The position numbers were made by a program, and so were the translations under genes. Positions 1 to 38,264 of a stretch of 46,312 bases of DNA are shown piece after piece. Where the stretch lies: IMG/VR virus record IMGVR_UViG_3300032050_000229, positions 1 to 46,312 of that record; one strand, 5' to 3'. Under the pieces are notes generated by a model. It ran no database searches, was not told where the DNA came from, and saw nothing but the letters and a program-made list of their open reading frames with translations. How positions within the stretch are numbered: the first letter of the stretch is position 1; each line of letters begins with the position of its first letter. Origin of the DNA: a virus.

Positions 1-2036
1 ATAGTATTGTTTGATTTAATAAAGGTAAAGGATGCTGAACCATTAGCCACACCTGAGTCATTGAATACAACATGCGTGTTAGATCCAGATACTGGACCAG
101 TTATACCTTGAACACCCTGTGCTCCTGTTGCACCTTGAGCACCAGTTGTACCTTGTGTTCCTTGTGCACCCGTTGCACCCTGTGCACCCGTTGTGCCTTG
201 CGATCCCGTGGTCCCTTGTGCGCCTGTCGTACCCTGTGTACCCGTGGTTCCTGTAGTACCCTGAGCACCAGTAGCACCCTGAGATCCTGTCACACCCTGT
301 GTGCCTGTCGCACCCTGGGCACCAGTAGTACCTTGAGCACCCGTTGCACCTTGAGCACCCGTTGCGCCTTGCGATCCTGTCGTGCCATTAGTTCCCTGTG
401 CACCAGTAGCGCCTTGTGCTCCTGTTGTACCTTGAGATCCTAAAACACCCTGAACACCTTGAGCACCAGTAGCACCTTGCGAACCTGTATTACCAGTTGT
501 GCCTTGTGTACCCGTGGTACCTTGCGTACCTGTTGTACCTTGAGTGCCTGTTGTACCTTGAGTGCCTGTTGTACCTTGTGTACCTGTAGCACCTTGTGTA
601 CCCGTGGTGCCCTGTGTGCCTGTAGTGCCCTGTGTACCTACAGTGCCCTGTGTTCCGTTAGTACCTTGAGTACCATTTGCACCCTGGGCACCAGTTGCGC
701 CCTGTGATCCTGTGTCGCCCTTATCACCAGTTCTAGCAAATGTAATAAGAATGTCTTCACTATTACTGAATGTGGTCGCACTACCACTAACATATGCACT
801 GGTTACAGTAAAGTAAGTTGTGTTATCTGTCAGTGCAGATATTGTGAATAAAGCAAAATCATTGGCATCAAATTTATTACTTACACGGAAATGTCCTTTG
901 ATTGTGCTTGTGCTATCGTCAATTGTTATTAAGAAATTTCGTATATCAGTAGCTGCATCATTTGTTGTATCGATGTACATTGCAGTACTTAATGCTACGT
1001 TAGCATTATTAAATCTTAGTTTACCAGTACCAGGATCGCCAGCGGTAGTTGTTGTATCGAAAGTGAAATCGAAGGTGGCACCACCAAAATTACCATCACG
1101 ACCAGTAATACCTTGAGTACCTGTCGCACCTTGTGATCCTGTTATACCTTGAGCACCAGTAGTGCCCTGAGAACCTGTTGTACCTTGTGTACCATTTGTA
1201 CCCTGAGCACCAGTTGTGCCCTGAGTGCCTGTTGTGCCCTGTGTGCCTACGGTGCCTTGTGCACCAGTAGTGCCCTGAGCACCCGTTGCACCTTGCGATC
1301 CTGTCGTACCTTGCGTACCGTTTGTACCCTGAGCGCCTGTAGCACCTTGAGATCCTGTCGCACCTTGAGCGCCAGTGGTTCCCTGTGATCCAATAACGCC
1401 TTGTACGCCTTGCGTACCAGTTGCGCCTTGTGCACCTGTTGTACCTTGTGTACCTACGGTGCCTTGTGTGCCTGTAGCACCTTGAGATCCTGTCGCACCT
1501 TGAGCGCCAGTGGTTCCCTGTACACCCGTAGCACCTTGGGAACCTGTTGTTCCCTGGGTTCCGTTAGTTCCCGATGTTCCTTGCGCACCTGTCGTGCCTT
1601 GTGTCCCATTAGTGCCTGAAGTGCCCTGTGTACCTACAGTGCCCTGTGTACCTACAGTGCCCTGTGATCCTGTAGTACCTTGTGTGCCTGTAGTACCCGT
1701 AGCACCCTGTGATCCTGTCGTGCCTTGTGTTCCATTAGTGCCTTGAGCACCAGTTGTGCCTTGAGATCCTGTGGTTCCTTGTGGTCCTTGCAATCCAGTA
1801 GGACTGCCAACCCATGTACCAGAAGAATTAATAACTTCTGAACCAGAAATACTAAGATTGGATAAATTAGCACCAACTTCAAAAAATACAGAACCGTTTG
1901 AAGTAAAAGCTTTTTTGTCTGGTAGATTTATGGCAAATTCACCAGCAGCTATGTACTGAGTGTTTGCTGGATCTGTTGTATTGGGCGTTCTTCCTGAGAC
2001 CGAAGTTCTCTTCGCCTGGTATCTTGTATTTGCCAT
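1..2036 (-). CDS. Collagen-like tail fibre protein (C-terminus cut off by the window edge)
   Basis: The minus-strand frame opens at the ATG at 2036 and I see no stop before position 1, so at least 678 codons are present. Residues 1 to about 85 form a head domain beginning [16 protein letters not shown], of the kind that starts many T4-like fibre proteins. After [11 protein letters not shown] come long Gly-X-Y repeats ([10 protein letters not shown] and similar). They are interrupted at about 730-1108 by a non-collagenous beta-rich stretch ending in FARTGDKG, then resume. Near the edge the frame leaves the repeats ([15 protein letters not shown]), as in fibre shaft/tip modules. Likely role: trimeric receptor-binding or decoration fibre. 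The second collagen-like gene at 4630-5811 shares the repeat type and the WVGS-TGLQG junction. No Pro-rich Y positions occur; Thr, Gln and Ala dominate. Confidence 0.85.
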
Positions 2037-2091
2037 ATGGCTCCAATTTACTGATATCTATCAAAAAGCCTGGTTATGTAACCATTGATAG

Positions 2092-2099
2092 TATTTAGC
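2092..2099 (-). promoter_or_regulatory. Possible late promoter (GCTAAATA) before the collagen-like fibre
   Basis: The minus strand reads GCTAAATA, six of eight matches to the T4 late consensus TATAAATA. It lies about 55 bases before the fibre start, just after the terminator of the upstream 61-aa gene. A promoter is needed here if that terminator works. The match is modest. Confidence 0.35.
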
Positions 2100-2131
2100 A
2101 AAAAAGAAAAGGGAACTTATGCAGTCCCCTT
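2100..2131 (-). terminator. Intrinsic terminator after the 61-aa gene
   Basis: On the minus strand an 8-bp stem (AAGGGGAC / GTTCCCTT, one G-T wobble) closes a 7-base loop containing the gene's TAA stop. It is followed by TTCTTTTTT. It would end transcripts from the promoter at 2334-2361. Confidence 0.7.
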
Positions 2132-2302
2132 CTTTGTAGCCTTAGCAAGTTGTTTTTCCAACTCTTCTATTCTGGTAGAAGCCTTTAGTAGTTTACTCTC
2201 TGTCAGGTTTTTTTGGGTTTCTAAGACTAATGTCTTTGATACCAATTCCTCTACAGTCTTTCTCTGAACACTCAGAAACTCATTAACAAACTCAATATCC
2301 AT
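2117..2302 (-). CDS. Small coiled-coil protein, 61 aa, in its own promoter/terminator cassette
   Basis: The 61-residue product starts MDIEFVNEFLSVQRKTVEEL. From about residue 12 it is a heptad-like helix rich in Leu, Glu and Lys, ending in a Lys-rich tail, so a soluble coiled-coil protein is likely. AGGA lies about 6 bases before the ATG. The gene has a near-perfect sigma70 promoter 32 bases upstream and an intrinsic terminator overlapping its stop, so it is probably transcribed early and separately from the late fibre genes on either side. Function not recognised. Confidence 0.75.
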   Translation of the reverse strand: MDIEFVNEFLSVQRKTVEELVSKTLVLETQKNLTESKLLKASTRIEELEKQLAKATKKGTA

Positions 2303-2333
2303 AAACCAATCCTATATGAAGGAAGACATCCCA

Positions 2334-2361
2334 ATTATACCAGGTTTTTCAGATTTGTCAA
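2334..2361 (-). promoter_or_regulatory. Sigma70-type promoter (TTGACA-16-TATAAT, extended -10)
   Basis: On the minus strand TTGACA (2361-2356) and TATAAT (2339-2334) are both perfect consensus boxes, 16 bases apart. TGG before the -10 makes an extended -10. The sequence from about 2313 to 2364 is nearly repeated at 38217-38266, where it drives another small gene. Confidence 0.88.
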
Positions 2362-2365
2362 GCCT

Positions 2366-3424
2366 TTAGAACGTACCACCATCAAGCACACCGAATGCTG
2401 GAATGCCAGATGAATTGATCTGTAGGACATGACCCTCTGTTGAAGATGATACCGCAGCTATACTGCTTGTATTTTGACCAATCAGAACACCGTTGTTAGC
2501 CAAGAATGGTAGGGTCAAGGCTGTGTTAAAACGACCAGAACCAGCCAGGATTTCAGCTAATGTGTAGCCAGTACCACCTGTATCAACGGTTGTTGTTGGT
2601 ACAACGGTTGTGTTGGCGAAGAATGTCCAGATATCGCTGTTTGAAGCGTCTCTGAACAAACCGCTGTAGCGTGTCGAACCATCGTTGTATGTGCCATACA
2701 GACCAATGTCTACGGTATCCGCAGAAGTATTCAGACGAGCCAGGGCGATCAGCGGATCTTCGACTTGTAGGGTTTCTACGTCAAGGGTGACTAGCGTACC
2801 GTTAACAACCAGGTTACCAGATGCGGTAATGTCATTAAAGGTGACGTTGGATGTGGTTGCGACAGCCTGACCGATAGCCAAGTTTCCGTTGCCGTCTAGA
2901 CTTACACCAACACCAGTCTTAACATGAAGACCTGTTACGTTGGCAACTAGACCACTTGATGTGTTGGCAAAAACAGCTATGGCATCAGCCGTTACGGAGA
3001 TACCGTTACCAGCAACAGCGTTAAGTGTTACAGCACCCTCAGTACCACCGCCAGTTAAACCGTCACCAGCAACTACTGAAGTGATATCAGCAGTTGTATT
3101 TGCCCAGTAAACATTACCAGAATCTCCAGAATGTAGAACTTGACCCGCTGTACCAAAACCACCGTTGGCGTAAATTTGAGTTGGGACTAAGTTAGCGACA
3201 ATTACTTTGTCAATAGCACTCGTTGCGTTTGCGACCAATACCTGGTTAGCAGTCAGGACACCAGGGAATCGTCTACCACCGATAGCTATCGATAAGCCAT
3301 TACCATTTGGTGAGCCTATGAAAAGAACCTCACCATTAGCGGTATAGGCTAATTCACCATTAGCCAACCCAGTAGGCGCAGCATTAGTTGTACTTCTTTT
3401 TACTTGAATTGTTGAGTTAGCCAT
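2366..3424 (-). CDS. Virion structural protein, probable fibre/baseplate decoration (352 aa)
   Basis: The product begins MANSTIQVKRSTTNAAPTGL, the Lys-Arg-Ser plus GELAY pattern common at the start of T4-like fibre proteins. The rest is low-complexity beta-rich sequence full of Ala, Val, Thr and Asn, with GDGLTGGG and VTFNDITASGNLVVNGTL motifs typical of phage fibre shafts. A GGTGY motif occurs near residue 285. It ends GVLDGGTF, an ending shared with the next gene upstream. It sits in the late structural run and its stop abuts the promoter of the 61-aa gene. The exact position in the virion is unknown. Confidence 0.75.
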   Translation of the reverse strand: MANSTIQVKRSTTNAAPTGLANGELAYTANGEVLFIGSPNGNGLSIAIGGRRFPGVLTANQVLVANATSAIDKVIVANLVPTQIYANGGFGTAGQVLHSGDSGNVYWANTTADITSVVAGDGLTGGGTEGAVTLNAVAGNGISVTADAIAVFANTSSGLVANVTGLHVKTGVGVSLDGNGNLAIGQAVATTSNVTFNDITASGNLVVNGTLVTLDVETLQVEDPLIALARLNTSADTVDIGLYGTYNDGSTRYSGLFRDASNSDIWTFFANTTVVPTTTVDTGGTGYTLAEILAGSGRFNTALTLPFLANNGVLIGQNTSSIAAVSSSTEGHVLQINSSGIPAFGVLDGGTF

Positions 3425-3442
3425 ATATTACCTTTATTATTA

Positions 3443-3700
3443 TTAGAATGTTCCGCCATCTAAACCGCTTATGCTGTCTGATGATAGTAGCTTTATCTCA
3501 TATTTATCTATTTCAGAATTATAGACCAGTGTTGCGCCATTTGTGACGTTAACTTCATCCACATCTCCAATAGACTCAATTGTGGCTACGGTTCCATCTG
3601 CAATACTGTTTTTTAGGGTAATAGGCGCATCCTGGACCAGACTGCCTGATGGGGCTGTCGATACCGTTATTATCTGGTTGCGTCTAACTATCGCTTTCAT
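3443..3700 (-). CDS. Small virion-associated protein ending in LDGGTF (85 aa)
   Basis: The 85-residue product has a basic start (MKAIVRRNQIITV) and an NVTNGATLVYN segment seen in small fibre-region proteins of marine T4-like phages. The last residues, SISGLDGGTF, echo the last residues of the 352-aa protein just downstream. The ATG overlaps the 3' end of the 110-aa gene upstream by 4 bases, so the two are probably translationally coupled. Predicted to be mostly beta strand. Function not established. Confidence 0.65.
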   Translation of the reverse strand: MKAIVRRNQIITVSTAPSGSLVQDAPITLKNSIADGTVATIESIGDVDEVNVTNGATLVYNSEIDKYEIKLLSSDSISGLDGGTF

Positions 3701-4029
3701 CTGGTGACTTCTGGTGTCAGGGTGACAATACCTTCCACTATTCTGGATACTATGTTAGCGGAGCTTACAACCTCTACGTCATAAACGTATCTACCAGAAG
3801 CTATTCTTGAAGTCTGATTGGCTGTTAAAGCAAGACTTACTTCACCACCAGTAGCATTTGACACGGACACATTGAACGACACCGAATTTGATGAGGTGTA
3901 GTGTTTGCGGATCTGACCGCGACCTGTATAGCCAGTCAAATCAACTGCGTCACCATCATCAGTCGTTACATTAACAACTGTTGAGTAGTCTGTTCCCTGG
4001 TCGATTACTAGATTTGCTTTGGTTGCCAT
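3697..4029 (-). CDS. Small beta-sandwich-like virion protein (110 aa)
   Basis: The 110-aa protein (MATKANLVIDQGTDYSTVVN) has the pattern of alternating strands with DLTGYTGRGQIRKHY and GRYVYDVEVV blocks. This resembles a recurring phage protein in fibre/baseplate modules that looks Ig- or BppU-like. It overlaps the 85-aa gene by 4 bases. It probably works with its neighbours in distal tail assembly. The family resemblance is from memory of the pattern, not a search. Confidence 0.65.
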   Translation of the reverse strand: MATKANLVIDQGTDYSTVVNVTTDDGDAVDLTGYTGRGQIRKHYTSSNSVSFNVSVSNATGGEVSLALTANQTSRIASGRYVYDVEVVSSANIVSRIVEGIVTLTPEVTR

Positions 4030-4036
4030 TTGTTAC

Positions 4037-4171
4037 TCATTTTGCATATGGTGGACGATTGTCTGTATCTGGTGGTAAAACTACAGATTTTGTTTTTTTC
4101 TTAGAGCCTTTTACGAAAAATAAAATTACACCGACTACTACGATAATTCCTACGATTGCGCCTACTGACAT
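4037..4171 (-). CDS. Tiny membrane protein, 44 aa
   Basis: A 44-codon gene runs from the ATG at 4171 to a TGA at 4037, with AGGAG 6 bases upstream of the ATG. The product begins MSVGAIVGIIVVVGVILFFV, a single transmembrane helix, followed by a basic KGSKKKTK stretch and a Pro-rich tail (LPPDTDNRPPYAK). This is the layout of a small inner-membrane protein with a cytoplasmic tail. It lies between two structural genes. A role in lysis or envelope modification is possible but unproven. Confidence 0.7.
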   Translation of the reverse strand: MSVGAIVGIIVVVGVILFFVKGSKKKTKSVVLPPDTDNRPPYAK

Positions 4172-4183
4172 ATTGTTCTCCTA

Positions 4184-4630
4184 TTAGAAATAGCCCATGG
4201 TTACGGTCCACGTTGCGGTATCAACGATATTTGTTCCAGATGAATCTGTGGAAATATTTATGGTGTATGCTGTAGATGCTGTTCCTGGATTTCCTGTTGA
4301 TGGTTTAGAAAATCCAAAAGTTCTATCAACATTCATCTGAAGCCATGTATCAAATGTACCCGTCTGTGTTATGGATGGGGTGTTATCAACCACATTGTAA
4401 GAAACTCTAACCCAATATCCACTACCAATATCGGTTGATAGCGGAGATCCCCAATCTGGTAGCGTTGGGGTTGCGGTTGCTGCTACAGCAAGAACAGTAT
4501 TACCATCTGGCTTAAAAGTCCACCCTTTGATATTTTGATCAGAAGATGATGTGGATGCATATGCGTTTGCTATATCACCAATACTAACTACAAATTGTGG
4601 GGTACTCAATAGCATTTGATGTGCTGACAT
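4184..4630 (-). CDS. Tail-associated structural protein (148 aa)
   Basis: The product starts MSAHQMLLSTPQFVVSIGDI. It then has a GYWVRVSYN..TWLQMNVDRTFGF pattern and a Ser/Thr-rich strand region, similar to a small beta domain repeated in many phage tail-fibre proteins. Its ATG touches the stop of the collagen-like gene upstream (shared base 4630), so they are read as one operon. It may be the cap or tip partner of the collagen-like fibre. Function inferred from context only. Confidence 0.6.
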   Translation of the reverse strand: MSAHQMLLSTPQFVVSIGDIANAYASTSSSDQNIKGWTFKPDGNTVLAVAATATPTLPDWGSPLSTDIGSGYWVRVSYNVVDNTPSITQTGTFDTWLQMNVDRTFGFSKPSTGNPGTASTAYTINISTDSSGTNIVDTATWTVTMGYF

Positions 4631-5811
4631 TAGCTTAGCCCTGCTCCGCTTATGATGCCTTCAGTGCTCGTTCTGAACCACACAGTAGCCATACCATAAG
4701 CAGCCAGGGTTCTGGTTCCAGTTGTAGTTGTTCCAGCTAGTCTTAATGTGCCAGAGGAAGATAGAGTTCCGCTGATCGTAATAGAAGATGCGCTATTGTT
4801 ATAAATGCTGACAATATCACCAGCTGCAAATGTCGAGTTTGGAATAGTCACGTTAGTCGAAACAGATGTACATTTACCGACATCAGCTGTAGTTAGTGCC
4901 GTGCTAGTTGTTAATGGAACTACTGTCGGACCTTGTGTACCTGTCGTACCTTGTGCACCTGTAGCGCCTTGTGTTCCATTAGTACCATTAGTGCCAGCTG
5001 TACCTTGTGAACCAGTAGCACCCTGGCGACCTTGTACACCCTGTGATCCATTAGTACCAGCTGTGCCTTGTGCACCAGTTGTACCAGTTGTGCCTTGAGT
5101 ACCTGTTGTACCTTGTGATCCATTAGAACCAGAAGTACCAGTCGTTCCTTGAGTGCCTGTAGCACCTTGCGATCCTGTTACACCGACAGTACCTTGTGCG
5201 CCTGTTGTGCCTTGTGTTCCATTAGTGCCAGCAGTACCTTGAGTACCATTAGAACCAGCAGTGCCCTGAGCACCTGTTGTACCATTAGCACCTGTTGTTC
5301 CTTGTGTGCCCTGCGATCCATTAGAACCAGCAGTACCTTGTGTGCCATTAGAACCAGCCGTGCCTTGAGTACCTGTTGTACCATTAGCACCCGTTGTACC
5401 TTGTGTACCAGTAGCACCCTGTGATCCTGTTGCGCCTTGAGCAGCTGCTGCTCCAGCAGTGCCCTGGGCACCCGTTGTTCCTGTTGAACCTGTTGTACCT
5501 ATGGTTCCCTGTGTACCAGTAGCACCCTGTGACCCTGTTGCGCCTTGTGCAGCTGCTGCTCCAGCAGTACCCTGTGCACCATTAGCACCCTGTATGCCAA
5601 GTGGTCCTTGTGATCCTGTTGTTCCTTGTGTAGCAGTGCCTGTTGTCCCCTGGGTGCCTGTTGTTCCTTGTAGACCAGCTGTACTACCAACCCAAGCACC
5701 AGTAGCATCAACAATGGTTGTTCCGTTAGACTTCAGTACGCCTTGAATATTTGCGTCTTCTGTTACTACGATACCGTTTTTTACTACGAAGTCTTTATTA
5801 TTTGTTGCCAT
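4630..5811 (-). CDS. Collagen-like fibre protein (393 aa)
   Basis: Residues 1-50 form a head (MATNNKDFVVKNGIVVTEDA) ending in WVGSTAGLQG. About 240 residues of Gly-X-Y repeats follow, using Gln-Gly-Thr, Gln-Gly-Ala and AAAAQGATG units, and then a roughly 100-residue globular C-terminal domain (VPLTTSTALTTADVGKCTSV). This is the usual phage design of capping head, collagen-like triple-helical shaft and C-terminal trimerisation or tip domain. Unlike the related fibre at 1-2036 it is complete. Its repeats are near identical at DNA level both internally and to that gene, making it prone to slippage and recombination. Start chosen at the first ATG, 23 bases after the previous stop. Confidence 0.85.
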   Translation of the reverse strand: MATNNKDFVVKNGIVVTEDANIQGVLKSNGTTIVDATGAWVGSTAGLQGTTGTQGTTGTATQGTTGSQGPLGIQGANGAQGTAGAAAAQGATGSQGATGTQGTIGTTGSTGTTGAQGTAGAAAAQGATGSQGATGTQGTTGANGTTGTQGTAGSNGTQGTAGSNGSQGTQGTTGANGTTGAQGTAGSNGTQGTAGTNGTQGTTGAQGTVGVTGSQGATGTQGTTGTSGSNGSQGTTGTQGTTGTTGAQGTAGTNGSQGVQGRQGATGSQGTAGTNGTNGTQGATGAQGTTGTQGPTVVPLTTSTALTTADVGKCTSVSTNVTIPNSTFAAGDIVSIYNNSASSITISGTLSSSGTLRLAGTTTTGTRTLAAYGMATVWFRTSTEGIISGAGLS

Positions 5812-5834
5812 AAGTCTCCCTATCCGCTAATGGC

Positions 5835-6707
5835 TTAGTCTACTTGAATGCGAAGTGTCGCTGTTTCAAATGTTCCTGTGGCTGCTGGCGTGAAATTGAT
5901 AGCTACTGCTGTAGCATTTATTGTTGTTGTGAATGTTCCGAGTGATGTGTTAAACAACTCAGCATAACGAGTTGCATAAACATCAGTACCATCGTGCATG
6001 ACCAACATCTCAATGCTGTGTCTGCCAGATGTTGATGGTTTCTTTATGTTGATCAAATACTTACAGGCGCTTGCAGCAGCCAGTGGGAAGCTATCGATTA
6101 CAGAAAGAGCATTTGTCGCTGTGACGTTTGTTGTGTTTGCAATGATATCAGCAGTCTTGATCGCCAGGGTTCCATCAACATACATCTCGCCAGTGACCTG
6201 GGTATTACCAGCAACTGCCAGTGCTTTGTTGGAGACCGCAGCGGTATTAACACCAGCTCTTAGATTGGCTGTGTCCACAACAAAGGCTGTTCCATTTGCT
6301 GCAACGTTACCAGCGACAGCCAGCGTACCGTCTGTATCGATACCAGTAGAAACAATGACGGTGTTTACTGTGCTGTTACCAAGCTTAATTGCTGTGGTGT
6401 TTGCAGTGACGTTTGCGCCAACATTGATTGCGATAGATACGTTTGCAGTTCCAGTCACTGCCAGGTTAGAGCTTACACTCAGTGTGTTTGTTGATGTAAG
6501 ATCACCGCCACGGATAGCACCGTTAGCCACTAGGGTAGTTACAACAAGAATACCATCAATTGTACCATTACCCGATACAGTATCACCAGCACCAGGAGCA
6601 ACAGTGACTGCACCAGTTGAAGCTAAGTCAGCTAGTTCGTTAGTTTTGGTTATCCACTGCCCAAATGTGTCGGTAGCAATTGTAACGTTTGGAGTACTTC
6701 TTGCCAT
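5835..6707 (-). CDS. Fibre-region virion protein (290 aa)
   Basis: The protein begins MARSTPNVTIATDTFGQWITKTNELA, a start found in tail-fibre-linked proteins of cyanophage-like myoviruses. Residues 40-190 are repetitive beta sequence (GTLAVAGNVAANGT, VTGEMYVDGTLAIKTAD). A more globular C-terminal domain (about 205-290) carries KYLINIKKPSTSGRHSIEMLVMHDGTDVYATRYAEL. That domain pattern is common at the end of such proteins. It follows the 68-aa coiled-coil gene without a gap (shared base 6707). A decoration or short-fibre role is likely; no enzyme motif is seen. Confidence 0.7.
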   Translation of the reverse strand: MARSTPNVTIATDTFGQWITKTNELADLASTGAVTVAPGAGDTVSGNGTIDGILVVTTLVANGAIRGGDLTSTNTLSVSSNLAVTGTANVSIAINVGANVTANTTAIKLGNSTVNTVIVSTGIDTDGTLAVAGNVAANGTAFVVDTANLRAGVNTAAVSNKALAVAGNTQVTGEMYVDGTLAIKTADIIANTTNVTATNALSVIDSFPLAAASACKYLINIKKPSTSGRHSIEMLVMHDGTDVYATRYAELFNTSLGTFTTTINATAVAINFTPAATGTFETATLRIQVD

Positions 6708-6913
6708 TATTGATCCCTATTGGCGATTAAATTTTTAATGCTTTTCAGTTCGTTCTTTATGGATTCAACATCTTTCTCAAGCTTAGCCAAACGTTTAGCT
6801 TTTTCTCGTTCTTTGAGGATAGTCATATACTCTGAATCATTTGTATTTATGATGGCAGCAGTAGATCTATCTCTAATAAAACCTTCGGCATTTGTCTTGA
6901 ATGCAGCGTTCAT
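6707..6913 (-). CDS. Small coiled-coil protein (68 aa)
   Basis: The 68-residue protein starts MNAAFKTNAEGFIRDRSTAAIINTND and ends in about 35 residues of charged helix (ILKEREKAKRLAKLEKDVESIKNELKSIKN) with heptad spacing. The N-terminal NAEGFIRDRSTAAIIN pattern recurs in small virion genes of T4-like phages. It overlaps the adjacent genes by one base on each side, so it is embedded in the late tail operon. Possibly a fibre linker or assembly factor. Confidence 0.7.
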   Translation of the reverse strand: MNAAFKTNAEGFIRDRSTAAIINTNDSEYMTILKEREKAKRLAKLEKDVESIKNELKSIKNLIANRDQ

Positions 6914-9264
6914 TATGCGGAAACCCCTAGTGATCTGATATCATCAACTCTTGGAACCGCAATACCATCAGAAGACAGGAGTACAACTTTTAGCGAGTAG
7001 GAGTCGAATTTATCGTATGGAACCATTGTTGTGCTGTAGTATCTGGCAACGTTATCACCAGATGTGTTATTGAATACGGAGTATTTATGCTTGACCTTAT
7101 CTACCTTCAGACCAGAAATATTGTTGACATTCAGGTTAACTAGGTTAGTTGTGATATCAAACACGGTTGTATTTGTTGTGTTTGCAACAACAGCGATCTC
7201 GTAGTTCTCTGGGAACAGCGGATCGTAGATACGAACCAAATCGTTTGCGACAAGCTCTGTGTTTGCCAAGGATCCAACACCGACAACTTGTGTATTACCT
7301 TGTGTCTGGAATGTGCCAGTCAGAACAGCATCCAATGTTGGGTATGATGTTAGACCATAGCCATACTCGCGCATATCGGTTGGAGTATTTTGGTTGCTCA
7401 CTTGATCAGCACCATACTCAATTTCAAGCATTGACCAGCCCTTATCATCAAATGGTTCTGGGTCAGATGAGTTGTGTACCTTTGCATAGATCTTGATATC
7501 AGTGTTTGGTGGACGGTATGCATTGATGAAAATCTTTAGATCTTCCGCAGCTTTGCCTTCACCGAATGTGATACGCTTGGTAATATGCTTACATGCAGCA
7601 TTACCATAGCGACCTTCTTCACCAGTAACATCATTGTTAATGTCGGCTCTCATTGTCAGTAGTTCAAGCTTGTTATCGAAGATAAGTGGGCTGGAAAAGC
7701 TAGACACACTGCTGTTTCCAGAATCTGCCATATCAATCTTCACGCGAATCTTACCAGAGCGTTTCTTCGAGTTGGCATCACTGAACAAGTTAGTTCCGTT
7801 TAGAACTTCATTTGATCTTGACGCAATGACAGCATCATAGTTTAGCTCTTTGATCTTATCGTTTTCGCCCTTGACTTCTCTGTTGTTGTCCAGGTTGTAT
7901 GCAGTGTTCGAGAAGTTCATTGTGTAGGTAGCTTTAGCACTTGGTGGTAGGCTGATACCAACTTTCGGCTTGATGAACTTAGTTTTTCTGTTATTGACTT
8001 GCTGAAGTTTCAGTCTTGACTGTGATGATCTGCCACGGATCAAGCTACCAATGGTATAGGTGAATGTAGCAGAAGCACCACCGACTGTGGTGATTGTTGT
8101 GGTTGGAGTGCTTGTGAATCCAAGACCAACATTAGTGAAGTTCAGGCGATTAATGACACCACTTCCATCGGTTGTGATGGTAGCGTAAGCGTTAGAAGTC
8201 GAACCACCGCCAGATACTTCAAGGGTATCACCGTTGGCATATCCTGTACCACCATTGGTTATGGCAGCTGTCTGGATAGAAGTGTTGGTAAAGTAGGCTG
8301 TTGCGTTTGCAGTTGAGTCTGTGAAAATAACTTCATCAGAGAGCTTATCTGTGGTGAAGTATTTGGCAACCACAGTCTTTTTGTAGTATACGCCATTGGC
8401 AGTGAACGATGGTTTAGTTGCAATGTTGATCGATGTATTGCTGATAATCTGATCGACTTGAACAACATCGGTGTTGCCAGCAGTACCGTCTGTGATAACA
8501 ATAAAGTCACCAACAGCTAATCCGTTTGTGATGAAACCAACTGTTGCGGAACCAGTTACTATTGTTGAGTTTGAAGCAACATTGATTGTACCTGTCGCAT
8601 AGAACGTAACGTTTGCGCCAAGAGCACCGTTGGCATGACCACCAAAGTCCTGATAGACATACTCGCCAGAAAGCATTGGTGCTGTCATGGTTGAGTATTT
8701 GACGAACTCTTGAGACTTGGGAATCAGATCGACTGTGACAGTATTGGCTGCAAACTTGGCAACAGATACCTTGTATTTCAAGTCTACATTATTCATCGCC
8801 AGCGGAGCTGAATAGTTGTTAAACTGATAGAACTTACCATCGCTAGTTCCAGAAGCACCTGGGGATGGGGTGTTGGTGTTCACCAGACGGTCACCCTGGA
8901 CGTTTTGCCACAATTCGAAGTCTGGGTCTTCAAACTTGATTACGATAGCGTAGAAGCGGTCTGAGGCGACAGAAACAGGTGCGTCAAAGGTGAACACAGA
9001 TGCAACAGAGGCATCTGCCAGAGCATTAACCTGATCATAAGATAAACGGACTGTTGTACCCTTGATAACACGAGCCGAGTCTGGGCTGTATGAGCTATCA
9101 GTTTCGCTTATCCCAATGACCACACCAGGATTAACAATACCTGAACGGTTATTGGTAGCCTTTGGCTTTCTCTTGAAGTAAAGCTTTACACTCGTAAGCA
9201 GAACGCTTGGGGCGCTTTTTACTGCTGCTTTATCGATGTAAAATGTCTGAGCGAATGAATACAT
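6913..9264 (-). CDS. Large tail/baseplate-peripheral structural protein (783 aa)
   Basis: The N-terminal 170 residues (MYSFAQTFYIDKAAVKSAPS, with FYAIVIKFEDPDFELWQNVQGDRLV) form a conserved block that I associate with T4-like marine phage fibre-attachment proteins. In the middle are two copies of a GTxxxxxxSxxVxGxGTxF..GDxVxIxDGT type beta module (DNA about 8372-8605 and 7124-7330), which also occurs in the 1534-aa and 665-aa neighbours, plus a GGTGYANGD motif. No catalytic motif was seen. It probably forms part of the outer baseplate or long-fibre connector together with the DUF4815 protein. Confidence 0.75.
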   Translation of the reverse strand: MYSFAQTFYIDKAAVKSAPSVLLTSVKLYFKRKPKATNNRSGIVNPGVVIGISETDSSYSPDSARVIKGTTVRLSYDQVNALADASVASVFTFDAPVSVASDRFYAIVIKFEDPDFELWQNVQGDRLVNTNTPSPGASGTSDGKFYQFNNYSAPLAMNNVDLKYKVSVAKFAANTVTVDLIPKSQEFVKYSTMTAPMLSGEYVYQDFGGHANGALGANVTFYATGTINVASNSTIVTGSATVGFITNGLAVGDFIVITDGTAGNTDVVQVDQIISNTSINIATKPSFTANGVYYKKTVVAKYFTTDKLSDEVIFTDSTANATAYFTNTSIQTAAITNGGTGYANGDTLEVSGGGSTSNAYATITTDGSGVINRLNFTNVGLGFTSTPTTTITTVGGASATFTYTIGSLIRGRSSQSRLKLQQVNNRKTKFIKPKVGISLPPSAKATYTMNFSNTAYNLDNNREVKGENDKIKELNYDAVIASRSNEVLNGTNLFSDANSKKRSGKIRVKIDMADSGNSSVSSFSSPLIFDNKLELLTMRADINNDVTGEEGRYGNAACKHITKRITFGEGKAAEDLKIFINAYRPPNTDIKIYAKVHNSSDPEPFDDKGWSMLEIEYGADQVSNQNTPTDMREYGYGLTSYPTLDAVLTGTFQTQGNTQVVGVGSLANTELVANDLVRIYDPLFPENYEIAVVANTTNTTVFDITTNLVNLNVNNISGLKVDKVKHKYSVFNNTSGDNVARYYSTTMVPYDKFDSYSLKVVLLSSDGIAVPRVDDIRSLGVSA

Positions 9265-9277
9265 GTATAAGTCCTAA

Positions 9278-9859
9278 TTAGAATACTTTTCTAGATGAAA
9301 CAATTGTTTCGTCTACCAAGCCAACGCCACCCTCATAGACAGGCTGGGTTGGTGTTGCTGGCGCGGTGATATCGCCTGTACCCGCACTTATTGTCACCGA
9401 GAAGTGTGCGAAAGATGACTCTGTAGTTGTGTAGCTTTCTGCTGGTTGAGCAGACGCAGTAACGATAAACAGACGAGCACCCTCAGACACAATAGCCTGG
9501 GTGATCGTTGCGTTTGCCGTGTTACCTGATGCTGGAATCAAGGTGCTGGATCCAGAGATAACAGTATCACCAGTGAAGTAATACTTGAAGCTCAGCTGAC
9601 CAGAAGCGTCAGTGATAAGGCTATCACCTTTCTTCCCGCCAATTGGCTCACACAGAACACTTTTGTCGTTATTCACATTACCATCAAAGAAATAATGACG
9701 GGTTGATGGTTTAAGACCATAACAATCCACTTCAAAGGCAAAGTTTGTCACAGTTTGTGGAACTGAAATCTCTGGGCTGGTCAGCAACGCCTGTTCTTTT
9801 GTTTCAGGCGTTGTTGTGGTCCAGAAAACTCGTCCGTTTTTAATGTATGCTGTTGCCAT
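9278..9859 (-). CDS. Structural protein in the tail module (193 aa)
   Basis: The 193-aa product (MATAYIKNGRVFWTTTTPET) contains a segment SPEISVPQTVTNFAFEVDCYGLKPSTRHYFFDG that looks like a short Ig/fibronectin-type strand set. It also has GDSLITDASGQLSFKYYF, a turn-strand pattern frequent in fibre-connector proteins. Its ATG shares a base with the stop of the 1534-aa gene. Role not recognised beyond probable virion component. Confidence 0.65.
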   Translation of the reverse strand: MATAYIKNGRVFWTTTTPETKEQALLTSPEISVPQTVTNFAFEVDCYGLKPSTRHYFFDGNVNNDKSVLCEPIGGKKGDSLITDASGQLSFKYYFTGDTVISGSSTLIPASGNTANATITQAIVSEGARLFIVTASAQPAESYTTTESSFAHFSVTISAGTGDITAPATPTQPVYEGGVGLVDETIVSSRKVF

Positions 9860-12800
9860 TATCTTTCCTCACTCATGCTTTGATAGTTTGGCTTAATCGA
9901 AATAATTACTGGTGGCTCAATATTTAGCGTTGATGGAGCAACGATTGAGCTTACATCAGTGATCGATGTGTCAAAACCAGATTTCAGAACAGGTGGTGTA
10001 ATAGCATTGTTCGACAGTGAAGTGTTACTTGCATTTGGATCCGAGATCGAAATAGAAGACTGCGGATTCGATGGGGCAAGAGGCAGAGCAGCACTTGTGA
10101 CTGGTGTGACCAAGATAGTACCGCCAGTGTAGTTAGATGGTGAGACTTTCATCGTACCAGCATAACGTGTTGGTTGTGGCAGTGGTGTGGTGTTAGCCGA
10201 GTTATCAGCCGAGTCGTATGGGTAGCAAAGAACATATACCCACTTAGAACTAGCAGTGCTCTTCTTGGTCTTTACAGTGTAGTAAACACCATTTGCTGGA
10301 TTGTGGGTAAAGCTTATTTTACCAACACCAGACGCATACACTTTAGTATCAATTGTAGCGGTAGCATAATTAGCAGCTGTTGTATTTGCAAAGTATGTTT
10401 GCTTTTCCGCTGTTGATAATACAGCTGAAGTAGCTAAAGTTGCAATAGAATTGCCTTCAATTTCTGGTGAATTTGATTGATAAACTTCAAACATATCTTT
10501 TACGCCATAGTTCAAGAAGTACAGGGTTGCTGCACCGCTATTTGCACTGAAGACATACTTGAACGATGGATCCTCAACCGATGTGCTCGACTGACGGACA
10601 CAGATGGTTGACGATGTTGGTTCAACGTTTGCGGAAACCAGTGGACCATCAGTAGCACCAGTCTGACTAATCAGATCAAATTCTTCGAATGTAATGGTGC
10701 TGTTGCCAGTGTTTTCCAATGGTAGGTTCAGCTGTTCAAGCTTAGCAGTCAACACACCATCCAGGATGGTAGCATTGTATTCTGGATCCGCATAGTCAGT
10801 CAGGCTCAGCGATGTGAAGTTATCAACAAAGAAACCGAACTTGAAGCGATTGGTCAACGGATCGATAGAGCTTGGGATGTTGATGTTCTTAACGCTGTCT
10901 TCGATTGACGATAGCTGTGAGATATACTCAAGAGCTTCAATACGGCGTTCCAGCTTACCGATATCGTTCATGGTGTAGCCACGAGTCTGAACCTTGGTAG
11001 GATCAACGCTGATGGTGTATGAACCACGTCTACGACCTGTAGCCTTTTGGTTAATGACATTCGTTTCTGCGTACTGATACATTTCGGCAGAAAGGGTCAG
11101 AGGCATCGAAGGATATGGTGGGACAACCAGGGTTGCGATGGTCAAGCTGTCTTGTGGTGGTGGAGAGAACTTAGCCTGAGCCAAGCTGTCTGGAGTACCA
11201 CCAATGATCTTGATATCACTGTTGCCTGTGACAACCACGCGATCCTTACGACCCAAGTAGTATTCGGCAGTGAAGAAGTTATCACTTCCTGGTACTGGGA
11301 ATTTCTTGTTGTTGGCTGGATCGACAGTGTTACCGAACTTACCACCAGCAGTCTGCACAACAGGGTTGATGTTAGACGAAGCCAGAGTCGCAGTGACAAC
11401 AGCAGTGTTCACAACGCGAGGACGGAAGTCGATGCAGTCACGAAGATCATAGTAGTTGTCGCGGTTACCAAACACTTCTGGGATTTCCAGGGTGTGCATG
11501 GTTGCCGAGGCGCTTGCCAGCTGTAGTGTATCATTGATTGGATATTGAGATACAGTTGCTGGACCGTCACCTGTACGGGTCAGTGCATCATAAACGACAA
11601 GCAGTGCATCACTTGTTGTCAGAGCCAGAGTAGAGGTTGGCTTCTTGTACAGATAACCAAGATCCAAGTAGTCTTCGGTGTGGTTGCTGTCGATAAAGAA
11701 GTGTGAAGTAACATCGTCCGAGTTCAGATTGACTGTTGCAACATCGGTAGATTTATAGACACCTTTCAGGCGAATAATTTCTGGAACACCAAGGCACCAA
11801 GGACCACTGTTTGATGCAGCGTTGTTTGCCAGGTTCAAACGAACTTTAGCATCACGAGTCACAACTTTCTGATCAAGCGAAGCATTAGCAACCTTGACAG
11901 TATAGCTAACTGCGACATTAACAGCAGAAGGAATTGCATTACCAAATGCAATTTTAAGCGACTGTTGGTTGACACTTACGTTACCACCACGACCCGCACG
12001 GAATAAATTCAATGGAACGTTGTGTGGGTAGAACATCTTAGCTTTGACGGCGCTGCTTGCATAGCTTGTGTTGGCTTCTGCGATCATCAAGGTGTTGTTG
12101 ACAACCTTTTCAACTCTTCTGATATCAGAGTTTGTACCATCTGACAACAGAACATAATCACCTGGAACGAAGTCGGCAAGGAATGTTGTGCTTGAGCCGA
12201 CAAGGTTTGGACTTGTGGTTAGGGTTGTGATTGTGCCTGTCGCATTGGTTGTGGCTTGTGTGTTAGCCAGCGGAACCACGACCAGATCTTCTTTGTCGTT
12301 TGCACTCAAGCTTCCTGTGTATGGGAATGTTTCGCTACCAGACAGAGTAAGCTCAACGATACCCTGGGTGTTTGCTTGGATGCCAGAGAACGAAATGGTT
12401 CTGTATTCGTAGGTGAAGTTGTTTACCGCTTTGGTAGCAACCAGACCAGATGGGAGAATCAAGGTACTGTAGCCTTGCTGTTGAATCTGAGCAACGTTGG
12501 CTTGCAGGGTTGAGTCATAGGTCAGATAGATATCTGCGATACCGTCAATGTCTGTTGTGTTCAGGTATACGGACTTAGCATCCTTGAATGATTTGCCAGC
12601 ATTCATCTCAACATCGAATAGGTACATGCGGTAGACAGCATCAGGTGTACCTGGTGTGCCAGCTTCATAGACCAGGGAACGAATACGAGCCTTACCGATC
12701 TCAGTACCAGACACTGCAATTGCTGCTGCTGTATTGCTGGTAACACGGGTACGGTTGTTTGTCAAGTACAGACCAGCAGTATCTCTCAGCGAGATCTGTG

Positions 12801-14463
12801 TACCAGCTGGGAAGAAGAAGTTACCAGCAAGCTCATTGACCAGGATGTAATTACCATAGCTGACATTGATGTAGGTGTTGCTCACAACCTGAGATGTGGT
12901 GCTCTTTGGAATGGTGTCTTCGAATGTTGTCTGGGTGATAACACGCTTACCATTGATGTAACCGTGACCACGATCTACAGCAAGATTGAAGTTGTTGGCT
13001 TCACTGCTGATTGTCGATGGTGACTTGGTGGTTACGTTGAACTTGTCAATGATGAAGTTACCACTTTGTTCATATGAACGCAGTGCAATTTCATCACCAA
13101 TAGCATTGTACTGGGTTTTGCGGTTCTGCTTGAATGGGCGACCTTCGGCAAATTCAATAATCGTGAAGAAGTCTGAGTTAGCTTCGGCGTTTGCGGAAGA
13201 CATAACAGTCAGAGTTGGAGTAAGCTTCAGTCGGTTTGCACCTGGAGCCTGAGTATTCAGAGTTCCTGTGCTATTGTCGAGCAGCGAAGTGTCGATATTA
13301 CTGTTGATGATGGTTTCGATTGTGTCAAAGCCGACAGCCTTACTGTCTGGAGATTGATTGTATTTTTCAACAACAACCACTTGTGGATCGACACGAAGGA
13401 AGTGTCCTTTCTGGTAGATGATACCATCAGAGATACCGAAAGCGTAGCCGTTGCCGACAGCGTTTGCAGTCGAGGCAACAGTGACTTGTGCGATATAGTT
13501 CTGGGCGGTAAGGTTCAGAGAACCAATGATACCCGTTGCAGACTGAACCGCAACATAAGGAGCCACATAGTATCCTGAACCTCTGTTTGTTACGGCAACA
13601 GAAGAGATAACACCGCTACCATCGGTAACTAATGTTGCAGTTGAGCTTGAGCCAATGATCGATATTACATTAGCTGTAGAGCTTGTTGTGTTTGCAGTGA
13701 TTGTCAGACCTTCGCTGAAAGACCATTCGCTTGACGATGCAGCAGCATTAATTAAGTCGGTTGATTCTGGTTTTACTTTCAGGATTGTAATTTCGGTGTT
13801 TGTTGTGGTGTCAACATCGACAATGACAGCTGTGGATCCAGTTGTTGCCTGGGTGATCTTCTGACCGACAGTGAATCCACCATTGGCAAAGGTTAGACCA
13901 CCAACAGAGTTTTGAATACCGATAGCTGAAACGATATGAACAACATCAGAGTTGGTGAAGGCAGATGAACCAGCTACGATATTAACTTTGTATATGATGT
14001 TATTTGAATCGTAAACTGTAAGAGTTTGATCAGCAGCATATGCGGTATCAGTTTTGCTTGCACCACTGTTGATGTAATTGAAGTAGAGTGTGTTAAGATC
14101 TGGGTCACGGGACTCGAATCCAGTCTGGTAATTGACGATTGTCGATACTAGATTAGATGAGTTCTTCGCATACAAGCCTTCATAGAGTGCTGGGGTTACA
14201 GGCTGACCATCTATCTGAAGATCCAGGATCTTGGCATATGGGTAGTACGGGATGATGTTGAAGTTACAACCATCGATGATCGTACCACGCTTGAAAACGT
14301 TATCACCAAACTTCTCGATTTGGTTCTGAAGAATGGCTTGGAGCTGGTTAAGCTCACGGACCTGGACGGCTACACCTGGTCTGAACAGGATACGGTAGTA
14401 GTCGCTGTTCGCTGTGTAGTCATCGAAATATGGAGACACGTTTAAATCGGTCTGAATAGTCAT
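9859..14463 (-). CDS. Giant tail structural protein with DUF4815-type N-terminus (1534 aa)
   Basis: At 1534 residues this is the largest gene in the window. The first 120 residues (MTIQTDLNVSPYFDDYTANSD, RPGVAVQVRELNQLQAILQNQIE) match the DUF4815 signature of T4-like phage structural proteins. Beyond that it is modular. It has a GSGYYVAPYV motif near residue 297, long beta-rich segments, a copy of the GDYVLLSDGT module at DNA about 12030-12255, a conserved block near residue 1060 (DNYYDLRDCIDFRPR), and a short helix around LERRIEALEYISQL. The Pro/Ser-rich C-terminus may be a flexible tether. It lies directly after gp8, suggesting a baseplate-rim or fibre-socket role (inference). Confidence 0.8.
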   Translation of the reverse strand: MTIQTDLNVSPYFDDYTANSDYYRILFRPGVAVQVRELNQLQAILQNQIEKFGDNVFKRGTIIDGCNFNIIPYYPYAKILDLQIDGQPVTPALYEGLYAKNSSNLVSTIVNYQTGFESRDPDLNTLYFNYINSGASKTDTAYAADQTLTVYDSNNIIYKVNIVAGSSAFTNSDVVHIVSAIGIQNSVGGLTFANGGFTVGQKITQATTGSTAVIVDVDTTTNTEITILKVKPESTDLINAAASSSEWSFSEGLTITANTTSSTANVISIIGSSSTATLVTDGSGVISSVAVTNRGSGYYVAPYVAVQSATGIIGSLNLTAQNYIAQVTVASTANAVGNGYAFGISDGIIYQKGHFLRVDPQVVVVEKYNQSPDSKAVGFDTIETIINSNIDTSLLDNSTGTLNTQAPGANRLKLTPTLTVMSSANAEANSDFFTIIEFAEGRPFKQNRKTQYNAIGDEIALRSYEQSGNFIIDKFNVTTKSPSTISSEANNFNLAVDRGHGYINGKRVITQTTFEDTIPKSTTSQVVSNTYINVSYGNYILVNELAGNFFFPAGTQISLRDTAGLYLTNNRTRVTSNTAAAIAVSGTEIGKARIRSLVYEAGTPGTPDAVYRMYLFDVEMNAGKSFKDAKSVYLNTTDIDGIADIYLTYDSTLQANVAQIQQQGYSTLILPSGLVATKAVNNFTYEYRTISFSGIQANTQGIVELTLSGSETFPYTGSLSANDKEDLVVVPLANTQATTNATGTITTLTTSPNLVGSSTTFLADFVPGDYVLLSDGTNSDIRRVEKVVNNTLMIAEANTSYASSAVKAKMFYPHNVPLNLFRAGRGGNVSVNQQSLKIAFGNAIPSAVNVAVSYTVKVANASLDQKVVTRDAKVRLNLANNAASNSGPWCLGVPEIIRLKGVYKSTDVATVNLNSDDVTSHFFIDSNHTEDYLDLGYLYKKPTSTLALTTSDALLVVYDALTRTGDGPATVSQYPINDTLQLASASATMHTLEIPEVFGNRDNYYDLRDCIDFRPRVVNTAVVTATLASSNINPVVQTAGGKFGNTVDPANNKKFPVPGSDNFFTAEYYLGRKDRVVVTGNSDIKIIGGTPDSLAQAKFSPPPQDSLTIATLVVPPYPSMPLTLSAEMYQYAETNVINQKATGRRRGSYTISVDPTKVQTRGYTMNDIGKLERRIEALEYISQLSSIEDSVKNINIPSSIDPLTNRFKFGFFVDNFTSLSLTDYADPEYNATILDGVLTAKLEQLNLPLENTGNSTITFEEFDLISQTGATDGPLVSANVEPTSSTICVRQSSTSVEDPSFKYVFSANSGAATLYFLNYGVKDMFEVYQSNSPEIEGNSIATLATSAVLSTAEKQTYFANTTAANYATATIDTKVYASGVGKISFTHNPANGVYYTVKTKKSTASSKWVYVLCYPYDSADNSANTTPLPQPTRYAGTMKVSPSNYTGGTILVTPVTSAALPLAPSNPQSSISISDPNASNTSLSNNAITPPVLKSGFDTSITDVSSIVAPSTLNIEPPVIISIKPNYQSMSEER

Positions 14464-14469
14464 TGTTGC

Positions 14470-34585: not shown

Positions 34586-35329
34586 TCAGTTGATAGCTAA
34601 TGGTGTTGTGATTTTACGGGAACTCTTAATAATATCGCCTTTGAACCAATGACCTTTGACACAACGATAACGCTGATAAGAACGTGTCTTGGCGTGATAT
34701 GGACCACGGTGTTGGAAATCATACGAGCCACAAATCGGGCAATTAATTTCACCAGATGTGCTACGGTTCGGATGATCATCGATCCAAGGAAGCAAGCGAT
34801 GATACAACTGCTCAAGAAGCACAACGTCTTGCTTGTTGTAGGTCTTCATCGTCTTCCAGGATTTCTGATCACCAGCCATACACTCGTGCCAGAGCTTCAT
34901 GCCCTTGTGGTGATGTTTCTGCCCAAGACCTAATTCACGGCAAACGAAATCAAGCTTGTTGCTTGGGAACTTGAATTGACGGCGAACCGTACTCAAAAGA
35001 TCCAATTGCTTGTATGGGCTTGGTGGTGTCCACTCTTGCTTGACAAACTCTTTGTTCAAGTTTGGCATGTCGAATTTCCTACCATTGTAGTGAACAACCA
35101 CATCGGCTTCATCGAGAAGATCGTAAATTGGTTTCAACATTTCGGCACGGGATTGACCCAGGATGCTCTCGAAGTGCATGTTCTTGGCGGGTTCACCCAA
35201 CCACTTCGCAGCCCAACACATCGTGTATCCACTCTCGACAATGTTGTCTATGATAATGTTCTGATCCCAAAGACCCCACACATAGGCAAGGTTTGGCGCG
35301 GTTTCAATATCCAACAGTAAGATTTTCAT
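34586..35329 (-). CDS. DEDDy 3'-5' exonuclease with C-terminal zinc ribbon
   Basis: The 247-aa protein shows all three Exo motifs of a DnaQ/RNase H-like nuclease: ILLLDIETAPN (Asp/Glu pair), VVVHYNGRKFDMPNLNKEF (second Asp) and YNKQDVVLLEQLY (Tyr-X3-Asp), making it DEDDy. About residues 200-232 hold CPICG ... CVKGHWF, a probable Cys/His zinc ribbon for nucleic acid binding. It may degrade or process DNA ends during replication or recombination. AAGGAAT lies before the ATG. It is clearly not a polymerase-attached proofreading domain, being stand-alone. Confidence 0.85.
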   Translation of the reverse strand: MKILLLDIETAPNLAYVWGLWDQNIIIDNIVESGYTMCWAAKWLGEPAKNMHFESILGQSRAEMLKPIYDLLDEADVVVHYNGRKFDMPNLNKEFVKQEWTPPSPYKQLDLLSTVRRQFKFPSNKLDFVCRELGLGQKHHHKGMKLWHECMAGDQKSWKTMKTYNKQDVVLLEQLYHRLLPWIDDHPNRSTSGEINCPICGSYDFQHRGPYHAKTRSYQRYRCVKGHWFKGDIIKSSRKITTPLAIN

Positions 35330-35330
35330 A

Positions 35331-35708
35331 TTATTCCTTGAATAGGATAGGTGACAAGTCTGGCTTACTGTACAACTCAGACTTCAGGACTTTACCATCT
35401 TCACGGTAAATAGGTTGACCATTGGCATCAAGCTTCGACATATTGCTTCTGTGCACTTCCTTAAAGCAAGCGTCCAGGTCAATACCAAACGAAGCAGCTG
35501 CGCCATAAGTGACATACAAAATGTCAGCAAGAGCATCAGCAACACCAACGATATCCGCATGATCAATGGCTTCAGAAAGCTCAAACACTTCTTCTTGAAT
35601 AAGGTCATAGCGTAAATCAACTATTTTATAATCAGGAAAAGCAGCTTTTTCAGCAACAGGCTGTTTGAATGCCTTCATGAAAGCCTTTACATCATCGAAA
35701 TTACTCAT
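35331..35708 (-). CDS. MazG-like nucleotide pyrophosphohydrolase
   Basis: Start set at 35708 (MSNFDDVKAFMKAFKQPVAE) because AAGGTGG lies directly upstream; the frame extends to 35756 without a ribosome site. The helix LRYDLIQEEVFELSEAIDHAD and GVADALADILYVTYGAAASFG carry the ExxE...ExxD-type metal ligands of the MazG / PRA-PH superfamily. It would hydrolyse (d)NTPs to NMPs and pyrophosphate, or lower ppGpp as proposed for phage MazG. It overlaps the methyltransferase stop by 8 bases. Confidence 0.85.
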   Translation of the reverse strand: MSNFDDVKAFMKAFKQPVAEKAAFPDYKIVDLRYDLIQEEVFELSEAIDHADIVGVADALADILYVTYGAAASFGIDLDACFKEVHRSNMSKLDANGQPIYREDGKVLKSELYSKPDLSPILFKE

Positions 35709-37306: not shown

Positions 37307-37309
37307 TTA

Positions 37310-38000: not shown

Positions 38001-38004
38001 AAAA

Positions 38005-38039
38005 AAACTCCTGTAAGTATCTCTACCATACAGGAGTTT
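38005..38039 (-). terminator. Hairpin with T-run that also contains the AGGAG of the 173-aa gene
   Basis: Perfect 11-bp inverted repeat (AAACTCCTGTA / TACAGGAGTTT) with a 13-base loop, followed on the minus strand by T residues up to the ATG of the 173-aa gene. It looks like an intrinsic terminator for upstream transcripts and would hide the AGGAG ribosome site in any transcript that reads through. Confidence 0.7.
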
Positions 38040-38063: not shown

Positions 38064-38204
38064 TTATAACATGTATGTTACCATACCACCTAATGAACAC
38101 AAAAGACTGGTTACTGCTAATGGTTTAAACCATTTTGTGGTTTTGTTAATGAAATCCAAATAGATTCCTATTCCAAACCCTATTAGTAATAATGATATAG
38201 TCAT
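38064..38204 (-). CDS. Tiny membrane protein, 46 aa, in a promoter-terminator cassette
   Basis: The gene has an ATG at 38204 and TAA at 38064. The product is MTISLLLIGFGIGIYLDFIN, then a basic loop with TTKWFKP, then a second hydrophobic stretch (LAVTSLLCSLGGMVTYML), so a two-helix membrane hairpin. A near-perfect sigma70 promoter (38237-38264) lies just upstream and a hairpin terminator just downstream. No clear Shine-Dalgarno is seen. Possible early host-takeover or superinfection protein; function unknown. Confidence 0.6.
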   Translation of the reverse strand: MTISLLLIGFGIGIYLDFINKTTKWFKPLAVTSLLCSLGGMVTYML

Positions 38205-38236: not shown

Positions 38237-38264
38237 ATTATACCAGGATTTTTGGGTTTGTCAA
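38237..38264 (-). promoter_or_regulatory. Sigma70-type promoter, second copy (TTGACA-16-TATAAT)
   Basis: On the minus strand TTGACA (38264-38259) and TATAAT (38242-38237) with 16-base spacing and TGG extended -10. The region 38217-38266 nearly repeats 2313-2364 including the transcribed leader (GGGATGT...CTTCATAT). Drives the 46-aa gene and, past the hairpin, possibly the nucleotide cluster. Confidence 0.88.

Follow-up and report, generated by a model that had tools for sequence, protein, structure and literature searches.

The gp38 and Tfa genes lie directly after fibre genes. PMC3004832 describes T4 gp57A as a small oligomeric chaperone, 79 residues long and devoid of aromatic residues, on which fibre trimerisation depends; gp38 (22.3 kDa), according to the same paper, is a protein proposed to bring the fibre C-termini together. 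With regard to transcription, sigma70-like early promoters and NATAAATA late promoters are reported for T4-like cyanophages in a section of PMC2984593, while promoter and stem-loop motifs, the PeSLs, are said in part of PMC4503421 to mediate shuffling in T4-like phages.

The DNA analysed here is the IMG/VR virus record IMGVR_UViG_3300032050_000229 from a lake phage, a stretch of 46,312 nt called the window throughout. It carries baseplate wedge and hub genes, and from its genes we read the phage as T4-like. The window and four overlapping records (G001, G002, G005 and G009) were treated as a single phage population: positions 1-11066 of G001 correspond to window 35247-46312 at 99.99% identity, and overlap identities are 99.96-100% for G001 and G009, 99.4-100% for G009 and G005, and 99.9-100% for G002 and G005, with one 723-base stretch between G001 and G005 just 85.6% alike. 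The non-overlapping parts of these records, 136,312 bases, were scanned.

Behind a fibre-like gene of the window lies a gene for a protein of 61 aa. Like gp57A, this protein is small and contains neither cysteine nor proline, and its gene is linked to fibres as gp57A is to fibre trimerisation, but it differs from gp57A in that its gene adjoins the fibre gene and in having two phenylalanines instead of none. No match to Pfam GP57 was obtained in 5 records, though the 14 control genomes gave none either. The gene resembles those of gp38 and Tfa in lying directly behind a fibre gene and in being tied to a fibre C-terminal type, whereas its product is far smaller than the 22.3-kDa gp38 and matched no described family. 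ORFs of 68 and 58 aa are also found behind fibres ending DGGTF/DGGSY in Prochlorococcus phage P-HM1 (PHM1_094) and Synechococcus phage DSL-LC03, 18 nt from the fibre gene or overlapping it; these fibres, however, lack the VLQ motif described below, and hhalign probabilities of 30 and 10 do not show the ORFs to be homologous to the window protein. Among the papers searched, none brought an early promoter together with a tail fiber chaperone of a phage, and none connected gene 57A of bacteriophage T4 with early expression.

Anatomy of the 61-aa gene and its product

The minus strand of the window carries, in this order, the 352-aa fibre-like gene, 4 nt, the promoter, a 31-nt leader, the 61-aa ORF, a stem-loop and a collagen-like fibre gene (Table 1), with promoter, ORF and terminator-like stem all on the strand of the fibre genes. 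A first-pass annotation of this DNA had described a perfect TTGACA-16-TATAAT promoter with extended -10 and, on the fibre strand, a 61-aa reading frame with a terminator across its stop, and both descriptions were confirmed from the sequence: the promoter scores 12/12 with TG, as part of a TGG extension, ahead of the -10, and the stem is terminator-like.

Table 1. Positions of the features of the window that are discussed in the text
Feature	Description	Position	Strand
Collagen-like next fibre gene	extends past the left end of the window	1..2036	-
CTAAATA (within TTTTTTGCTAAATACTATCAAT)	late-promoter-like, weak variant match; between terminator-like stem and collagen-like fibre gene	2092..2098	-
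Intrinsic-terminator-like stem-loop	stop codon inside, T-rich tract behind	2107..2133	-
61-aa helical protein	fibre-linked family; N-terminal signature like M[DE]xEFVN	2117..2302	-
Leader	TGGGATGTCTTCCTTCATATAGGATTGGTTT, reaching the start codon of the 61-aa gene	2303..2333	-
Promoter TTGACA-16-TATAAT	TGG extension, sigma70-type, probable early class	2334..2361	-
Fibre-like gene, 352 aa	C-terminus ...GHVLQINSSGIPAFGVLDGGTF*, upstream of the 61-aa gene	2366..3424	-
85-aa fibre-module protein	C-terminus LDGGTF*	3443..3700	-
110-aa protein	matches phrog_1084 (unknown function) and phrog_3304 ('L-shaped tail fiber protein assembly')	3697..4029	-
46-aa ORF	hydrophobic by eye, behind second promoter copy	38064..38204	-
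Second promoter copy of the window		38237..38264	-

Promoter-like sites of at least 9/12 occur at chance level in window 1-15000 (21 against 24.6 expected), as do terminator-like sites as a class (11 against 11.4 expected), the stem at 2133-2107 having the most pairs among those listed. Exact TTGACA-N15-19-TATAAT is found three times in the window against 0.09 expected, and the exact TGG-extended form, TTGACA-N12-14-TGGTATAAT, twice against 0.00 in 100 shuffles. Since the weaker sites of both kinds are at chance, the case for this unit rests on the exactness of the promoter, its second copy and its conserved context. One of the three exact TTGACA-N15-19-TATAAT sites, a 12/12 sigma70-type match at window 17244-17273 (+), stands antisense within an 848-aa baseplate ORF, with no gene behind it, and is probably due to chance.

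The leader folds no better than shuffled sequences, and AGGA stands 7 nt 5' of the ATG. At the other end of the gene, the TAA stop (2119-2117) falls inside the stem, CTTTTTTGCT follows directly behind, and the 111 nt around the stem, a second hairpin included, give a folding z of -4.2; transcription may end here. A small palindrome, CTCTATATAGAG or GGTCTATATAGACC, is found shortly 5' of the collagen-like gene in four related loci (L003, L004, L014 and L020), the window having a different hairpin at that place. Long collagen-like repeats occur in the genes at window 105-1783 and 4923-5690 (-), with similar ones in G005 at about 46900-49500.

The 61-aa protein is predicted to form one helix over residues 3-60 (mean pLDDT 93.6, in a monomer model, which cannot show a coiled coil), and it also lacks tryptophan and tyrosine. 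As sole query it found no homologue in phages or viral contigs, and a homologue from a related locus (L020) found nothing in annotated phages. Against Pfam nothing exceeded the cut-off for the window protein, the weak coil-type matches including KxDL at E 0.0012, below cut-off, and among PHROGs only families of unknown function were matched, the best being phrog_5105, hit by 2 of 10 fibre-linked family proteins at E 7e-5. We place the protein in a fibre-linked family of EFVN helical proteins, given that it has the EFVN-type N-terminal signature and significant similarity to other members, and that its gene comes next after a fibre with a VLQ-type tail that ends in LDGG and two residues. The D[ST][ST]F/Y-like end of many homologues, which is not used to define the family, is absent from the window protein (C-terminus ATKKGTA) as well as from the proteins of three related loci (L007, L031 and L044).

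Copies of the promoter and late-type motifs

A weight-matrix scan of the approximately 136 kb returned four near-copies of promoter and leader, at window 2364, window 38267, G005 20963 and G005 59820, which score 51.7-54.8 of 55.1 bits with the next best site at 25.5; the matrix was built from these same four copies, and the scan shows only the absence of a fifth close copy. Both G005 copies were recovered in overlapping records too. In the alignment the four are alike beyond the hexamers, spacer and early leader being common; the first 20 nt or so of the leader at the 61-aa gene recur, with changes, in the other copies, and 45 of 51 bases are identical between the window copies at 2361 and 38264 (-), the latter of which had escaped the first-pass annotation. 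The common leader resembles TTGGGATGTTCTCCTTCATAT, and TTCTCCTTC within it is complementary to the Shine-Dalgarno-like GAAGGAGAA.

The genes behind the copies are the 61-aa gene, a 46-aa ORF, a tail-tube-like gene and a DNA primase gene (phrog_47). The tail-tube-like gene (phrog_45) has UvsY-like and DNA helicase genes behind it, and its promoter copy sits after the major head gene and the terminator-like GAGGGAGCAGAAATGCTCCCTCTTTTTGC. The 46-aa ORF recurs unchanged in one contig of the same population (L083) and slightly altered in another contig (L089). Sites of at least 11/12 number 20 across the 136 kb and 3-9 in five block shuffles, so that some of the 20 are chance occurrences; another 12/12 site stands ahead of a DnaB-like helicase gene. 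Apart from the promoter of the 61-aa gene, no sense-strand site in window 1-25.6 kb reaches 11/12. In the wider search, a looser promoter pattern was matched by 43 stretches, many of them in contigs with other leaders and genes, and therefore the promoter hexamers alone are unspecific; the exact promoter string plus leader gave 7 matches. A search of 9 records that have the promoter did not recover the fibre protein.

This arrangement recalls the PeSLs in that a strong sigma70-type promoter sequence is present in four near-identical copies in one T4-like genome and in that a terminator-like stem immediately precedes one of them, the copy behind the major head gene. PeSL cassettes of T4-type phages, which are said to mediate shuffling in hyperplastic regions, are reportedly the subject of Arbiol 2010 and Comeau 2014. 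In contrast, the promoter at the 61-aa gene has no contiguous stem-loop, the fibre stop being 4 nt upstream of the -35, and it stands in a structural region; we regard it as working like part of a PeSL and do not call it one.

Late-type motifs are of a different kind. TATAAATA occurs 22-48 nt ahead of the 784-aa, 189-aa and 328-aa genes and the 443-aa major head gene of G005, the last identified by a PHROG match and the first two presumably sheath-like and tail-tube-like from their position. An ORF of at least 100 aa starts within 60 nt of 8 of the 14 TATAAATA sites in G005 and of 2 of the 4 in the window, where the number of sites is not above chance (4 against 2.05 expected). Over window 1-25700 the sense strand has 15 occurrences of the core TAAATA, 6 of which lie no more than 60 nt upstream of a gene start, against 4 on the opposite strand; for NATAAATA the corresponding counts are 9 and 0. 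A search for the MotA family gave no match, with the control genomes empty as well.

From the genes behind its copies, and from the different look of the late-type motifs, the promoter likely belongs to an early class. The first-pass annotation had proposed early or constitutive expression, and early expression would be the likeliest reading in view of the copies before the primase gene, before the tail-tube-like gene with UvsY and helicase behind it, and before the 46-aa ORF; that a tail-tube-like gene comes first behind one of these copies counts against it, since the promoter then does not go with early genes alone.

The fibre junction in relatives and the fibre C-terminal type

To compare this junction among relatives, 80 loci were fetched with the neighbouring 110-aa protein and then mapped with window proteins, and a profile search added 80 further loci, 64 of which encode one identical protein; the 783-aa tail protein used as query gave 2 candidate stretches, of which 0 were confirmed. 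In a uniform scan, family proteins were recorded 87 times and represent 18 distinct sequences, the window's included. Four loci (L003, L044, L055 and L161) were missed by its motif filter, and L003, L044 and L161 also hold the gene.

The distance from fibre stop to gene is 0-23 nt in 14 of the 17 distinct relatives, several of which barely differ from each other, against 63 nt in the window, and the fibres ahead of the gene in these 14 end in LDGG and two residues. Relatives with no gap use TTG or GTG as start codon of the gene and have, within the DGG codons of the fibre, a stretch resembling GGAGG or GGGGG, an arrangement that suggests translational coupling of the two genes. The fibre-gene gap of L007 (46 nt) and L019 (61 nt) contains a terminator-like stem, no strong promoter being seen there, and that of L162 (649 nt) a homing-endonuclease-like gene. 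This gene (3608-4210, NUMOD3) and one in L055 (12162-12917, phrog_314) both have TATAAATA ahead and stand directly 3' of the fibre stop, before the partner in L162 and the likely partner in L055. When 120 nt upstream of the gene were scanned in the first locus for each distinct protein, the best promoter was 7-9/12 in all 17 relatives compared with 12/12 in the window.

Because homologues follow a fibre gene in 17 other distinct versions, the 61-aa gene is, by its synteny, a resident of the fibre module. The proposal in the first-pass annotation that promoter, gene and terminator had been inserted as a unit does not agree with this conservation: homologues occupy the same place, mostly abutting the fibre stop, and what the window has in addition is a 63-nt promoter-leader segment (AGGCTTGACA...TTGGTTT), found in no relative examined, and a different 3' end, with a stem running across the stop codon and no D[ST][ST]F-like terminus. 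Whole-unit insertion of a moron was rejected on this synteny; a promoter and a terminator of the gene's own are found at the level of sequence. Since a single lineage has the promoter, its gain here would be simpler than losses in many relatives. No close sister phage containing the left end of the window was found.

Presence or absence in relatives was the check suggested at the outset. In 30 of the 80 loci fetched with the 110-aa protein, the end of the fibre gene and the start of the collagen-like gene could both be placed; the junction between them holds a homologue or likely homologue in 11 (L003, L004, L005, L006, L008, L013, L019, L020, L031, L044 and L055) and none in 19, a patchy distribution as far as this junction goes. 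The partner in L055 was assigned solely from its position, its coil-like sequence and its EDDTF end.

The presence of the gene goes along with one type of fibre end. G-x-[VI]LQ is found in the last 35 residues of the fibre at 19 of 19 loci with the gene (the window, 13 from the search with the 110-aa protein and 5 from the search with the gene) and at 0 of 19 without it, the latter representing 14 distinct tails. An RDx motif, which marks a common upstream region, is present in 17/19 and 18/19 of these fibres, respectively, 129-135 residues from the fibre end in loci with the gene (96 in the window) and 44-45 in those without. The window fibre lacks the SGG[TL]G segment seen in the other 18 fibres with the gene. 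Relatives' fibres end in LDGG or IDGG and two residues. In the window, the 85-aa protein and its neighbour, the 352-aa fibre, both have an LDGGTF* end, and a DGG[TSA][FY] terminus is found on no other reading frame of at least 60 codons of the window, G005 or G001.

Since the VLQ motif had been picked post hoc from the tails, a wider check was run on all ORFs of at least 150 codons with a C-terminal DGG and two residues. The 47 distinct tails so obtained comprise 20 with both VLQ and partner, 24 with neither, 3 with VLQ and no recognisable partner, and 0 with a partner and no VLQ. Behind the VLQ-type fibre of L047 the next long ORF overlaps the stop, with no partner; in L076-L078 an unrelated-looking acidic ORF of 57 aa lies 48 nt downstream; and in L055 the homing endonuclease is followed by a 134-aa ORF with the EDDTF end. 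With 3 of the 23 distinct VLQ-type tails having no recognisable partner, fibre end and gene are not strictly linked one to one. As far as seen, the partner appears to need a VLQ-type fibre end, and the fibre end can apparently do without the partner. Shared descent can produce much of this co-occurrence.

Function and timing of the gene

Position, size and co-occurrence with a fibre end make a fibre-assembly factor the best guess for the 61-aa protein. Our tentative explanation is that it is a partner in fibre assembly, like T4 gp57A or gp38, whose gene has moved from late to early expression with self-contained transcription; function, timing and direction of the change are all inferences from the sequence. 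A small helical assembly factor, a chaperone or a trimer clamp, would serve the 'VLQ...LDGGTF' C-terminal end of the upstream fibre. In most relatives the gene would probably be co-transcribed and co-translated with the late fibre gene, whereas in the window lineage a segment of about 51 bp with promoter and leader, of which the sampled genome has four near-copies, lies between the fibre stop and the gene. With the terminator-like stem closing the gene and the late-promoter-like motif preceding the next fibre gene, whose transcription it may restart, the result would be a monocistronic unit readable by the host sigma70 polymerase from the start of infection, and the product would probably be made before the fibres it serves.

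The main rival is that the 61-aa protein is a virion-resident structural piece of the fibre or baseplate, such as a helical connector or a trimerisation peptide, with the promoter just adding dosage. The place behind the fibre gene, with abutting start codons in relatives, the co-occurrence with a fibre C-terminal type and the single long predicted helix would all suit such a piece, but it would have little to gain from early, separately terminated expression, and known fibre chaperones such as gp38 and Tfa are likewise encoded directly after fibre genes. On balance we consider a structural piece on the unlikely side.

A wider proposal, which we hold to be unlikely, is that the helper of a receptor-binding fibre is timed apart from the fibre itself: a repeated 51-bp cassette would put it in the early class and a pool of helper would be ready before the fibre chains, and the junction would then be a site at which phages swap promoters, terminators and homing endonucleases along with the fibre end.

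It is rather improbable that the promoter-leader is a mobile regulatory repeat that came to this gene by a neutral accident, a reading compatible with some of the others. The four near-identical copies, and a junction that in other phages hosts terminators (L007, L019) and homing endonucleases (L055, L162), are what such a repeat might produce, but the right strand, the AGGA 7 nt ahead of the ATG, the downstream stem and the late-like motif make up a coherent unit. Still less probable is a promoter active throughout infection, or a booster in the late phase, with the gene not specially early: the region's sense strand has late-type motifs and no second strong sigma70-type site, although one copy does precede the tail-tube-like gene and genes of RB49 and cyanomyoviruses can have both early and late promoters, as a section of PMC2984593 states. 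That the gene is an early host-modifying moron, inserted with its promoter and terminator as the first-pass annotation had suggested, is very improbable. The self-contained anatomy would fit, and so would a promoter common to primase and other non-fibre genes, but 17 distinct relatives have homologues at this position with no promoter of that kind, and the distinct tails that go with the gene (20/20) are all of one fibre type, which points to the fibre and not to the host. Searches of family libraries and annotated phages suggested no alternative role, though they suggested no role of any kind.

Small genes behind fibre genes are known, and so are repeated early-type promoters; what is new is their combination. 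The 61-aa protein belongs to the family of fibre-linked helical proteins defined here, unmatched in the libraries searched and tied to one fibre C-terminal type in uncultured T4-like phages, and if these are true fibre chaperones they may aid the soluble expression of fibres from such phages. With the fibre-assembly reading, the locus would be an instance in which one small cassette may have brought a late structural helper gene under early transcription.
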